Assembly: GCA_018713515.1 (NCBI GenBank)
Contig: DVOO01000029.1
Location: 57,154 to 121,153, forward strand
Length of the DNA: 64,000 bases
Reading direction: 5' to 3'
DNA from: Candidatus Scatomonas pullistercoris
GTDB taxonomy: Bacteria > Bacillota > Clostridia > Lachnospirales > Lachnospiraceae
Shown here: piece by piece, positions 56,555 through 61,058 of the stretch
Numbering within the stretch: the first letter of the stretch is position 1
Layout: every line of letters starts with the position of its first letter
Translations under genes and position numbers: made by a program
Notes under the pieces: model-generated
The model's database searches: none
What the model was told of the DNA's origin: nothing
What the model saw: only the letters and a program-made list of their open reading frames with translations

Positions 56555-57169
56555 CTATACGTCCTCAAGATTCACCATTTCCTGTCCCTGTCTGTTCTCT
56601 GGATTCCCGCGGGTTCCCGCGTAGATCCCGATTCCCAGCAGTACCGCCAGAACCAGCAGCGCCGCGCCGGAAATGCATGCTTTCCGGAACTTTCTTCTGG
56701 AGGAACGCTGCTCTCTCTTTCCCAGCCGGTCCAGTCCCTCTTCTACCGCTTCCGAAAGTTCCTCCGGAATGTCAATAGCCGTTACTCGCCTTACCTCTTT
56801 TCCGATCTCCGCCGTATCCTGGCGCATATTTGCCTTTGCCCGGTCCAGATAAGCCTTCACAGAGCCCTCCGGAATATCCATGGCGTAAGCGATCTCCCCA
56901 ATCTCCATCTTCTGCATATGGCGGAGATACAGGGCGGTGAGATATCGGTTGGGCTTCTGATTAATAGTACTCTCCGCCAGCAGGCCTCTGGTAATCTGCA
57001 GCTTAAAGCTCTGCCCGTCATCCAGATCTCTGATTCTCCGAAAGCCTTCACAGGCAGCCGTGCGTACCGCCTCCAGCGCCGGCTGCTTATCCCCCAGATA
57101 GAAGAAAGCAATCCGGTACAGATACTCGCTCTGCTCCCTGAAAAGGTTCGCGTATACTTTTAACTTCAC
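56555..57169 (-). CDS. Sigma-70-family-like protein with C-terminal membrane anchor
   Basis: N-terminal sigma2/sigma4-like region (MEIGEIAYAMDIPEGSVKAYLDRAKANMRQ), then IPEELSEAVEEGLDRL...RRKFRKACISGAALLVLAVLLGIGIYAGTRG single TM. Confidence 0.8.
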   Translation of the reverse strand: MKLKVYANLFREQSEYLYRIAFFYLGDKQPALEAVRTAACEGFRRIRDLDDGQSFKLQITRGLLAESTINQKPNRYLTALYLRHMQKMEIGEIAYAMDIPEGSVKAYLDRAKANMRQDTAEIGKEVRRVTAIDIPEELSEAVEEGLDRLGKREQRSSRRKFRKACISGAALLVLAVLLGIGIYAGTRGNPENRQGQEMVNLEDV

Positions 57170-57697: not shown

Positions 57698-57794
57698 CCT
57701 TACGGCTCCTTAACTAAACATTTTTTTCAAAAAATTTCAAAAAACTCTTTACAATCTCCAGATCCTGTTGTATAATCTTTTTCGTTGAGTGCTT

Positions 57795-57869
57795 CGGGGT
57801 ATGGCTCAGTTTGGCTAGAGCGCACGGCTGGGGGCCGTGAGGTCGCAGGTTCGAATCCTGTTACCCCGA
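57795..57869 (+). tRNA. tRNA-Pro (anticodon GGG)
   Basis: Acceptor CGGGGTA/TACCCCG; anticodon arm CACGG-CTGGGGG-CCGTG; T-arm GCAGGTTCGAATCCTGT; CCA not encoded. Confidence 0.93.
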
Positions 57870-57879
57870 TTTCTGTAGG

Positions 57880-57922: not shown

Positions 57923-58254
57923 ATTATCTTCCATATCTTTCTGTATCTCAAAAATACCATTCCTGTCATATCTCTTCCTTCGCATCTCCGTACATTTATT
58001 TTCTCTGCCCCATCAGTTTCAGTTTATCACATAATTCCCGATTGTCCATAGCAGCCGGCCCTTGCCGCAGTTAACATACTGCTTACATTTAATTTACATA
58101 TATTTGATTGTGAATTTTCCTGCGGCCTGTTACCATACAATCACTATATTCAAAGGGTATATTCTTGCCTTCTTTTCAGGTCCGCCGCGCCGCGGCCCCG
58201 AAAATTCCCAATTCTTTTCGTACTCTATATAACAGGAGGGGTGGAGCACAGAAG

Positions 58255-58992
58255 ATGGTAAATACAGAACATGAAATTGTGGAAAAAGTTTACGCCGCCA
58301 AAACGGATTCCCGGGCGGCTGATGCGCTGATTCAGCAGTATCTCGGATTCATCCGGAAGGAGGCGGCCCGCACTGTTTACCGGACCGGCAGCAGCCGGGA
58401 GGACGAAGAAAGCATCGCCATGTTTGCCTTTTATGAAGCCATATTAAGCTATGAAAAGGACCGGGGCGCTTTTCTCTCCTACGCCGCAAGGGCGATCCGG
58501 AACCGCCTTATCGACTATTACCGGAAAGAAAAAAGGCACCGGAAAATCATTTCCCTGGATACGCCTTTCCAGGCGGAGGACGAGGGGATCCGTCTGATGG
58601 ATACGCTGGCCGACGATACCGACCACTTTGACGGCTATGCACACCGGGAGGCAAGTCAGCAGGAAATCCGGGAATTTGAAAAAAAGCTGGAGGAATTCGG
58701 AATTTCCTTTTCCGATGTGGCGGACAACTGCCCCCGGCAAAAACGCACTTTTACCGCCTGTATCCGGGCACTGGAATACGCCAGAGAGCATCCGGAGCTC
58801 CTGGAGCAGCTCCTTCGCAGCAGAAAATTACCCGTCAGTGAGCTCTCCGCCGGTTCCGGCACTGACCGGAAGACCATGGAGAGACACCGGAAATATCTCG
58901 TGGCTATCCTGCTGGCATTCACCAACGGCTATGAAATCATCCGGGGACATCTCTGTCAGATCGGAAAAGGAAAGGAGGAAGCTGCCATATGA
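58255..58992 (+). CDS. sigI: RNA polymerase sigma factor SigI
   Basis: QYLGFIRKEAARTV...DEESIAMFAFYEAILSYEKDRGAFLSYAARAIRNRLIDYYRKEKRH; C-terminal SigI-type HTH; followed by rsgI with ATGA overlap. Confidence 0.92.
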   Translation: MVNTEHEIVEKVYAAKTDSRAADALIQQYLGFIRKEAARTVYRTGSSREDEESIAMFAFYEAILSYEKDRGAFLSYAARAIRNRLIDYYRKEKRHRKIISLDTPFQAEDEGIRLMDTLADDTDHFDGYAHREASQQEIREFEKKLEEFGISFSDVADNCPRQKRTFTACIRALEYAREHPELLEQLLRSRKLPVSELSAGSGTDRKTMERHRKYLVAILLAFTNGYEIIRGHLCQIGKGKEEAAI

Positions 58993-59870
58993 AATATCTG
59001 GTTATGGAAACTCATCCGTCCTATGCAGTGCTTCTGGACCAGTCCGGCCGTTTCCTGAAAGCAGCAAATCTGAACTACCATGTGGGCGATACCGTAACGG
59101 ATATTATAGAACTGTCGCCTGTACCAGACACCGGCCAGAAGCAGCTCCGTCTGCTACGCAGAATAACGGGAAGCCTGACGGCCGCCGCAGCCTGCTTCCT
59201 TCTGCTGTTCTTCGGCGTATACCGGCCAAACTTCACGCCATACGGAACCGTACGTCTTCAGATCAATCCCGATATTCAGATGACGTTAAGCAAGACGGAA
59301 CGGGTCCTGGATCTGGACGCGCTGAATCCGGACGGGGAGGCCCTGCTGGAAGGGTACGAGTACCGTGGGAAAGACCGCGAACAGGCTTCCGAAGAACTGG
59401 TCAGCCGCGCTATGGATATGGGATATCTGGGCGAAGGCGGCATTGTCTCTATTACCGTGGAAAGCGATGACAGCAGCTGGCGGCAGGAGGAGGAAGAAAA
59501 GTCCCTGTCCCAGATGCGGGAAAAATACGGCAGAACTATTATCATCCGCACAGGCATTATGGAGGGAGAAACAGAAGAACCTCCGCTGCAGACAGAATCG
59601 GACGTGGAAATTATTATTGATCTGCCCACGCCTACCCCTGCACCCCAGACAGTAACGCCTACACCCGCCCCTGTCATCATACCTTCAGATGACGATGACG
59701 ACGATAATGAGGGTGTCATCCAGCCGGGCGATGACGATGATAATGGCGATGACTGGGAGGAGGTTCCCGGGGATAATAGCGGCAATGTTCCGGATGATGA
59801 CAGCGAGGACGGGGATGACGATGACAGGGATGACGATGATGACGGTGACGGCGATGATGACGATGATTAA
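58989..59870 (+). CDS. rsgI: RsgI-like anti-sigma factor with Asp-rich extracytoplasmic tail
   Basis: Short cytoplasmic RsgI-N-like region, one TM (AAAACFLLLFFGVY), periplasmic module VRLQINPDIQMTLSKTERVLDLDALNPDGEALL, Thr/Pro linker, poly-Asp tail. Confidence 0.88.
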   Translation: MKYLVMETHPSYAVLLDQSGRFLKAANLNYHVGDTVTDIIELSPVPDTGQKQLRLLRRITGSLTAAAACFLLLFFGVYRPNFTPYGTVRLQINPDIQMTLSKTERVLDLDALNPDGEALLEGYEYRGKDREQASEELVSRAMDMGYLGEGGIVSITVESDDSSWRQEEEEKSLSQMREKYGRTIIIRTGIMEGETEEPPLQTESDVEIIIDLPTPTPAPQTVTPTPAPVIIPSDDDDDDNEGVIQPGDDDDNGDDWEEVPGDNSGNVPDDDSEDGDDDDRDDDDDGDGDDDDD

Positions 59871-59975
59871 AATTTTTTCAGTTTTTTTCCTTCCAACCCC
59901 GGTTTTGGGAAAAGGGCCCCGTATTCTTCTGACATAAAAGCAAAAAAATTTTGGAAATGGAAAGGAGATCAAACT

Positions 59976-61058
59976 ATGACGAGGAAAGTAAACTTTAAAA
60001 AAACATGTATCGCATTAACTTCCGGTATTCTTTTGGCAGGTATGACGGCCTGCGGTTCCAGCCAGGAGACCGCGCAGGTCAGCACGCAGCCCAGCCGCCC
60101 CGCCTCTGTTACTCCCGAAACAGACAGCAATGAACCCGCCGGCACACTCCTGCTGAGTGTCAACCCGGAGATTGAAATTGCCTATGACAGGACAGGTGAT
60201 GTACTTTCTCTGGAAGGACTGAATGAAGACGGTAAAGCTGTAGTTTCCTCCTGCACCGGCTATGAAGGCCAGCCCTGCCGGGAAGTGGCGGGGGAACTCG
60301 TAACAGCAATAAATGAAGGGGGATATTTTGACACCACCATAGCCGGTCATGAGAAAAACATTATCCTGAAGCTGGCAAAGGGCTCTGAATATCCCCACGC
60401 GGAATTTCTGGATGAAATAGCCGATGAGATCCGGATCACTGTGGAAACGAATCAGATCGGTTCTCAGGCTGTAGCCCTTGACGATGATGATTATGACGAT
60501 GTTCTGGGCGAAAAAGGCTATATCGGTGAGCAGGCGGCGCAGGAAATTATCTCCGCGCAGCTGGGCCGCGATGATCTGCAGTTCACCGTAAAGGAATATG
60601 AGCTGGATGACGGGATTTATGAGATTGAATTTATCATGGACGGTGTGGAATATGAGTACGAAGTAGACGCCGTTACCGGAAAGGTCCATGAGGCAGAGCG
60701 GGATGACGATGGCGGAGCACAGATTCCTGCTGCCGGTACACCGGCCCCTGCTGCTCCCTCCCCCACTGTTCCCCCGCAGACAGGCAATTTTGATGACGAC
60801 TGGGATGACATTTACGAGGATGACCGGGATGACGATGACATTGACGATGATGACTGGGATGACGGGCCGGATGATTCATACGACGATGATTACGATGATG
60901 ACTGGGACGATTATTATGACGATGACAGCGATGATGACCGGGATGATGATGACATTGACGATAATGACTGGGATGACGATAATGAAGATGATGACCGCGA
61001 TGATGATTGGGACGATATGGATGATGATCAGAATGATGACGACGACGATGACGACTGA
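59976..61058 (+). CDS. Secreted lipoprotein with RsgI-like periplasmic module, PepSY-like region and Asp/Trp-rich tail
   Basis: Lipobox LLAGMTAC; LLLSVNPEIEIAYDRTGDVLSLEGLNEDGKAVV resembles the RsgI periplasmic module; ELDDGIYEIEFIMDGVEYEYEVDAVTGKV PepSY-like; tail DDDWDD... Confidence 0.85.
   Translation: MTRKVNFKKTCIALTSGILLAGMTACGSSQETAQVSTQPSRPASVTPETDSNEPAGTLLLSVNPEIEIAYDRTGDVLSLEGLNEDGKAVVSSCTGYEGQPCREVAGELVTAINEGGYFDTTIAGHEKNIILKLAKGSEYPHAEFLDEIADEIRITVETNQIGSQAVALDDDDYDDVLGEKGYIGEQAAQEIISAQLGRDDLQFTVKEYELDDGIYEIEFIMDGVEYEYEVDAVTGKVHEAERDDDGGAQIPAAGTPAPAAPSPTVPPQTGNFDDDWDDIYEDDRDDDDIDDDDWDDGPDDSYDDDYDDDWDDYYDDDSDDDRDDDDIDDNDWDDDNEDDDRDDDWDDMDDDQNDDDDDDD
60819..60977 (+). repeat. Imperfect 45-bp coding repeats (two copies, 60819-60863 and 60933-60977)
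   Basis: GATGACCGGGATGACGATGACATTGACGATGATGACTGGGATGAC vs GATGACCGGGATGATGATGACATTGACGATAATGACTGGGATGAC. Confidence 0.85.

Follow-up and report, generated by a model that had tools for sequence, protein, structure and literature searches.

By its predicted domain content, the lipoprotein encoded next to rsgI in the window, the 64,000-nucleotide stretch of DNA analysed here, is a partial copy of RsgI: it combines a lipobox and a PepSY domain with an RsgI_M/SEAL domain that carries an Asn-Pro motif. As far as the literature covered shows, the sigI-rsgI-lipoprotein unit is a conserved and previously undescribed variant of sigma-I/RsgI signalling. We tentatively propose, at somewhat less than even confidence, that within a self-contained sigma-I circuit RsgI is a sentinel, a copy of the lipoprotein under its control, and the lipoprotein is probably the regulated product of this circuit rather than a bystander. 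The features of the locus are as follows.

58196..58226, + strand: sigma-I-type promoter motif CCCCGAAAATTCCCAATTCTTTTCGTACTCT, 5' of sigI (CCCC-N19-CGTA)
58255..58992, + strand: sigI, sigma-I-type sigma factor, 245 aa (NCBIfam and PDB profile matches)
58989..59870, + strand: rsgI, membrane anti-sigma factor, 293 aa (PF23750 RsgI_M, 2e-21)
59172..59222, + strand: single transmembrane segment of RsgI, SLTAAAACFLLLFFGVY, read by eye from the sequence
59241..59528, + strand: SEAL / RsgI_M periplasmic domain of RsgI (PF23750, 2e-21)
59688..59867, + strand: acidic tail of RsgI, aa 234-293, 60 aa, 53% Asp, ends DD
59897..59927, + strand: sigma-I-type promoter motif CCCCGGTTTTGGGAAAAGGGCCCCGTATTCT, 5' of the lipoprotein gene (CCCY-N19-CGYR)
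59976..61058, + strand: lipoprotein gene, 360 aa, with lipobox, SEAL, PepSY and acidic tail
60051..60053, + strand: predicted lipobox Cys26 (LLAGMTAC), invariant in 10 aligned relatives
60153..60488, + strand: SEAL / RsgI_M domain of the lipoprotein (PF23750, 8e-15)
60522..60701, + strand: PepSY domain of the lipoprotein (PF03413, 3e-7)
60792..61055, + strand: acidic tail of the lipoprotein, aa 273-360, 88 aa, 69% Asp, ends DD

SigI and RsgI

The stop codon of sigI overlaps the start of rsgI (58992 versus 58989). A tRNA-Pro (GGG) gene lies just 5' of the sigI operon (57794-57870, + strand), and an ECF-like sigma factor with a weak region 2 and an apparent C-terminal transmembrane helix (GAALLVLAVLLGIGIYAG) is encoded at 56555-57169 on the - strand. 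The NCBIfam SigI models are the best matches of SigI (1e-49 to 1e-27), yet these scores fall under the curated cut-offs. Its PDB matches cover both the N- and the C-terminal domain, with 8i24 (SigI6) at 1e-23 and 8i23 (SigI1) at 4e-22, and the weakest of the matches to 8i24, 8i23 and 6ivu stands at 4e-13. The resemblance spans the whole protein, which places it among the sigma-I factors.

RsgI has the architecture of its family, one transmembrane helix followed by a SEAL/RsgI_M domain with an Asn-Pro motif (Asn93-Pro94, nt 59265-59270). The N-terminal RsgI_N domain (PF12791) is weak in the window protein (19.7 bits against a cut-off of 25) and is detected in 7 of 9 relatives at E<=0.01, the best at 7e-6. 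PDB profile matches of the SEAL domain include 8t9n (4e-10), 8hep (1e-8), 8her and 8u9o, and the first residue of the deposited B chains of 8hep, 8her, 8u9o, 8heq and 8hdj aligns with the Pro of the RsgI motif. The C-terminus holds no carbohydrate-binding or hydrolase sensor and consists instead of an acidic tail that lacks a Pfam match; the sequence-only reading, which saw an RsgI-type anti-sigma factor with an acidic end and no carbohydrate-binding module, is thus borne out. The B. subtilis subtype is not defined by such a sensor, so its absence rules out only the cellulolytic RsgI subtype. The window's own genome encodes another RsgI_M protein, of the ECF anti-sigma type, in L025 (G000:C26, reverse strand, 1363-2124), whose SEAL-like domain is probably not self-cleaving since its Asn-Pro is replaced (the sequence reads SSLELE).

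Domain structure of the lipoprotein

The predicted N-terminal signal with its lipobox Cys marks the third protein as a putative bacterial lipoprotein. Its Asn63-Pro64 (SVNPE, nt 60162-60167) belongs to a VNPE motif present in all 60 of 60 lipoproteins compared. A profile built from ten relatives matched B. subtilis RsgI (8t9n, 1e-7) and a PepSY chain (9vy3, 3.5e-6) in the PDB. AlphaFold2 modelled the lipoprotein core at a mean pLDDT of 81, and a Foldseek search with this model ranked 8t9n first (E 1.6e-6, TM 0.73 on the target) and RsgI2 (8heq) next, with a weak fold match to the PepSY lipoprotein 4exr. In this model Asn63-Pro64 separates strand 1 (residues 56-61) from strand 2 (residues 65-70), and the combination of a modelled SEAL fold with Asn-Pro between the first two strands places the lipoprotein among the SEAL-domain proteins. 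Because Asn-Pro marks the start of the deposited, cleaved RsgI B chains, RsgI and the lipoprotein each contain a putative cleavage site, and we infer that both may cleave themselves at this point. In the lipoproteins of L017, L018 and L019 the SEAL domain is kept and PepSY is replaced by DTDYGPNNDGVTDY repeats.

Acidic tails in the window

As first noted from the sequence, RsgI ends in a long Asp-rich stretch after a Thr/Pro linker: 60 residues in frame, 32 of them Asp, with a net charge of -35. The lipoprotein had been credited with a tail of about 90 mostly Asp residues and regularly spaced Trp, Tyr and Ile. Its length and composition are confirmed (88 residues, 61 Asp, net charge -60); the regular spacing is not, the steps between successive Trp/Tyr/Ile/Met residues being 3,1,9,5,8,4,4,3,1,13,5,13,3. 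In their densest 40-residue stretches the lipoprotein has 29 Asp and RsgI 22, and no other open frame of the window has a comparable density, the next best reaching 9 Asp in 40 residues. In the whole genome, the DNA pattern for DD-x-DDD-x-DD is found three times in the window lipoprotein and otherwise in one place only. The Asp codons of the lipoprotein tail are mixed (GAT/GAC 35/26, longest pure run three codons), which rules out simple one-codon slippage.

Promoter motifs and predicted regulon

The published sigma-I consensus is ACCCCC--AA N15 CGAA for Bacillales and CCCYYAAA N13-14 CGWA for C. thermocellum (PMC4711584). The motifs of the window agree with it, giving sigI a candidate autoregulatory promoter of the kind that pairs a C-rich/A-tract -35 with a CGWA -10, and we infer that this sigma factor uses both promoters. 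CCCY-N19-CGYR is present in 55 of 59 rsgI-lipoprotein intergenic regions, against a mean of 1.0 and a maximum of 5 in shuffled sequences, and usually lies about 50 nt 5' of the lipoprotein start codon. The consensus of these sites reads ACCCCGgTTTT-N13-CG[TC]Aa[TC]CT, and its terminal CT occurs in 54 of 54 sites although it was no criterion in site picking. Most related loci also have a similar element in front of sigI.

In the window's own genome (2.35 Mb, 97% complete), the motif CCCCNNWWWN{13,15}CGTANNCT, which is strict and can miss weaker targets, occurs exactly twice, at 58196 (sigI) and 59897 (lipoprotein). A slightly looser motif also occurs exactly twice, both times inside the operon, in each of G299, G300 and G305 (a Thermophilibacter, an Olsenella and an Oscillibacter). 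Across 20 genomes, a hand count puts about 42 of 91 looser sites at the system, the other 49 comparing with 34 for a reversed-pattern control. Judged by these predicted sites, the sigma factor appears to activate little besides the lipoprotein.

Conservation of the unit

When GTDB contigs were scanned, 184 relatives were obtained, of which 80 loci were retained, and nearly all of these have sigI, rsgI and the lipoprotein gene in that order. The hosts, mainly gut Clostridia, include Lachnospiraceae, Oscillospiraceae, Christensenella, Traorella and Coriobacteriia. The last group includes Olsenella, Collinsella and Thermophilibacter provencensis, isolates included (L041, L043-L046, L048-L053, L056, L058, L059, L062, L064, L066-L069, L071, L072 and L077-L080). 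Within the window's family, the RsgI subtype, defined at E<1e-25, is found in 14 of 299 genomes; 13 of these encode the lipoprotein and the 14th ends at a contig edge. No full-domain lipoprotein was detected outside those 13 genomes among the 299. The other RsgI_M proteins of the family end in an extra PepSY domain or in Pro/Gln- or Lys/Glu-rich sequence, with a few Asp-rich stretches as well.

Tail types across relatives

Three tail types are found among the relatives: poly-Asp with Trp, Arg and Tyr; tandem 15-residue DTDYGPNNDGVTDYN repeats; and DSGYDDGN. Over 60 complete pairs, 54 lipoproteins and 47 RsgI proteins carry DD at the tail end. Comparison across the RsgI-lipoprotein pairs shows that tail type tends to agree within an operon, so the tail style first remarked upon in the window is shared recurrently. 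The k-mer similarity between RsgI and lipoprotein tails is 0.099 within an operon and 0.028 with others, a difference reached in 0 of 5000 permutations. Against the lipoprotein tails of the nearest relatives, an RsgI's own partner wins 27:13 in 40 informative cases (p=0.04), most poly-Asp pairs being uninformative in this test. With phylogenetic contrasts, Tyr content remains correlated between the two tails (r=0.60, p=4e-6), Trp content holds by t-test and fails under sign-flip, and Asp content, which we had considered as proof of tail co-evolution, loses its correlation (PIC r=0.21, p=0.13). Tail type therefore co-varies within operons, and the match in bulk Asp is mostly shared ancestry.

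The repeat tails bear on how this agreement is maintained. The 15-residue units are nearly identical as protein, and their codons differ by 11-34% within one lipoprotein (62% in a two-unit case) and by 28-65% between lipoprotein and RsgI. Retention of the peptide while codons drift suggests that selection acts at the protein level and speaks against gene conversion in recent times, and an origin of the tails by chance or slippage was rejected on the codon mixing and the codon drift of the repeats. The matching is not absolute, since a locus in the closest relative, Candidatus Scatomonas merdavium, has a repeat-type tail though the RsgI of that genome is of the poly-Asp type. This locus (L176, G304:C100, reverse strand), reached through a promoter motif outside the operon, encodes a second SEAL-PepSY lipoprotein with DTDYGPNNDGVTDY (DTDYGP) repeats and its own sigma-I-type motif, followed by VTC, DUF4956 and CotH genes.

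AlphaFold2 predicts a regular beta-solenoid for the DTDYGPNNDGVTDYN repeats (pLDDT 88.6), which we treat as a lead only because the program can over-predict perfect repeats. The repeats have no match in Pfam up to E 10 and none among PDB sequences, and the solenoid model has no match among PDB folds (best E 0.45). Membership in the TSP3, EF-hand or RTX families was rejected, as neither profiles nor structures matched and only a resemblance is left.

A downstream VTC-DUF4956-CotH module

VTC-DUF4956-CotH genes, checked by Pfam, follow the lipoprotein gene in 23 of 23 loci with repeat-tailed lipoproteins and in 0 of 37 with other lipoproteins, the poly-Asp type included. The nominal p=4e-17 is not to be taken at face value, because on the SigI tree the VTC label switches only about four times, so that the association reflects a handful of matching changes, together with the additional copy in L176, rather than 60 independent ones. 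VTC and CotH are both absent from the window genome and hence lie outside the basic system; there, the predicted targets of sigma-I are its own operon and the lipoprotein. In the repeat-type species the module probably shares a transcript with the lipoprotein, which is then not the only product. The same three families are known from Gram-positive pel loci (PMC7112168). A link to a pel exopolysaccharide cluster was discarded, as no pel genes were seen 3' of CotH in the ORF listings, read by eye, of eight extended loci.

Discussion

According to PMC12203970, the periplasmic domain of RsgI cleaves itself, strand 1 holds the two halves together, and their separation lets RseP and ClpP-type proteases release sigma-I; SEAL signalling is also treated in Brunet 2022, as cited in PMC10202637. 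Building on this, our sentinel model would run as follows. RsgI and the lipoprotein would both be anchored in the membrane, both with a SEAL domain containing Asn-Pro and with an acidic tail reaching outward. A tail ligand (a polycation, divalent ions or a surface polymer), or the stripping of SEAL ectodomains, would act on both proteins alike. Loss of the ectodomain of RsgI would expose the protein to destruction by site-2 and Clp proteases and so free sigma-I, which would transcribe sigI-rsgI and, from a separate promoter, the lipoprotein gene; newly made lipoprotein would then restore the acidic coat. That one ligand is common to both tails, and the direction of the response, are suppositions of the model. 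We regard as doubtful its broader form, in which gut Clostridia and Coriobacteriia share an effector-mimic homeostat whose anti-sigma factor stands in for the product of the sigma factor, and in which the sigma factor of several species serves a single lipoprotein.

A rather unlikely alternative is that the system senses wall integrity as in B. subtilis, the RsgI tail threading the peptidoglycan unstructured, its acidity keeping it extended and soluble near anionic polymers, and the lipoprotein serving envelope repair. The disordered region of B. subtilis RsgI has been proposed as a wall-defect sensor as reported in PMC13059805 and PMC10202637, and the tails described here vary in length and follow Thr/Pro/Ser linkers. 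This account leaves unexplained the matching of the tails, the conserved 15-residue repeat and the SEAL domain of the lipoprotein, and the window's own genome has no further strict-motif site that could drive a wall gene. That the tails are alike through repeat slippage and gene conversion in adjacent genes, with no function behind the likeness, seems very improbable. The tails are internally repetitive and their length shifts fast among close relatives (L001 versus L061), but the repeat protein is kept while 11-65% of its codons differ, GAT and GAC are mixed, and the DD tail ends recur in both partners (54/60 and 47/60).

Two further readings concern what the tails might bind, and both can be taken as choices of ligand inside the sentinel model; the sequence-only reading had suggested Ca2+/Mg2+, cationic peptides or cell-wall charge as candidates. 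It is improbable, in our estimate, that the lipoprotein works as a polycation trap, with cationic host peptides, lysozyme or a cationic exopolysaccharide as the molecules caught and RsgI sensing the same polycation. The net charges of -35 and -60 would suit this role, many of the loci come from animal-gut genomes (going by record titles alone), and the repeat-tailed lipoproteins adjoin the VTC-DUF4956-CotH module, which PMC7112168 places beside clusters for Pel, a cationic polymer. Against it, no pel genes were seen by eye within the flanks read, and the window genome has neither VTC nor CotH. We rate as quite improbable a divalent-cation sensor or buffer, with tails binding Ca2+ or Mg2+, ions setting the stability of RsgI, and the lipoprotein storing or scavenging them. 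The Asp density is very high, the NNDGVTDYND repeat resembles, by eye, the DxDxDGxxDxxD loops that bind calcium, and the repeats are modelled as a beta-solenoid (pLDDT 88.6); the same repeats match nothing in Pfam, the PDB or known folds (best E 0.45), and perfect repeats can lead AlphaFold2 to produce spurious solenoids.

The closest described counterparts of the sentinel arrangement are other sigma-I systems. With Clostridium thermocellum SigI/RsgI, which regulates the cellulosome, the unit shares SigI, a one-pass RsgI (RsgI_N, transmembrane segment, self-cleaving periplasmic domain) and a sigma-I-type autoregulated promoter. It differs in having an acidic tail and no carbohydrate sensor, in its third gene, a lipoprotein with the periplasmic domain of RsgI, and in that the strict motif reveals no cellulosome-like regulon. 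Like Bacillus subtilis SigI/RsgI, which acts in wall homeostasis, it has a SEAL domain followed by a long, low-complexity and probably disordered extracytoplasmic region; unlike there, the region is a tail of extreme acidity, built in the manner of the tail on the adjoining lipoprotein.

The E. coli sigma-E/RseA/RseB system offers a functional analogy, in that the third gene of the operon also supplies an extracytoplasmic partner in anti-sigma control. RseB, unlike the lipoprotein described here, does not duplicate the periplasmic domain of RseA and lacks a tail shared with it. CD1622 (PDB 4exr) is likewise a lipoprotein with a PepSY fold, the fold match being weak, and we know of no SEAL domain, acidic tail or sigma-I promoter in PepSY lipoproteins of its type. 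The module that follows repeat-tailed lipoproteins in the relatives consists of the same three families as the accessory module of Gram-positive pel loci (PMC7112168); unlike those loci, the window genome lacks VTC and CotH, and no pel genes were seen in the flanks read. A text search returned no paper containing both RsgI and PepSY, and the SEAL-domain paper, which lay outside its coverage, may mention such lipoproteins.

How RsgI senses plant polysaccharides is understood, and its sensing of wall defects is understood in outline. Sigma-I is widespread among Bacilli and Clostridia according to PMC10575876, and the present system extends it to isolates of Coriobacteriia. Since domain and tail are common to the sensor and to the main product predicted for the circuit, the arrangement yields an idea of what is sensed, and for what reason, that can be put directly to the test, and the tiny predicted regulon means that sigma-I function can be tested by removing one or two genes. 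If the model is true, loss or occupation of a surface lipoprotein would be read out through the parallel loss of the anti-sigma ectodomain.

Two minor observations concern promoter motifs in relatives. In L174 (G003:C21, reverse strand), a motif outside the operon precedes the gene for a small, secreted-looking PepSY protein with a DDDDRWDD-type repeat tail (DDDDDDRWDD). In L177 (G303:C2), four near-identical promoter motifs stand in tandem 5' of the lipoprotein gene, about 105-115 nt apart.
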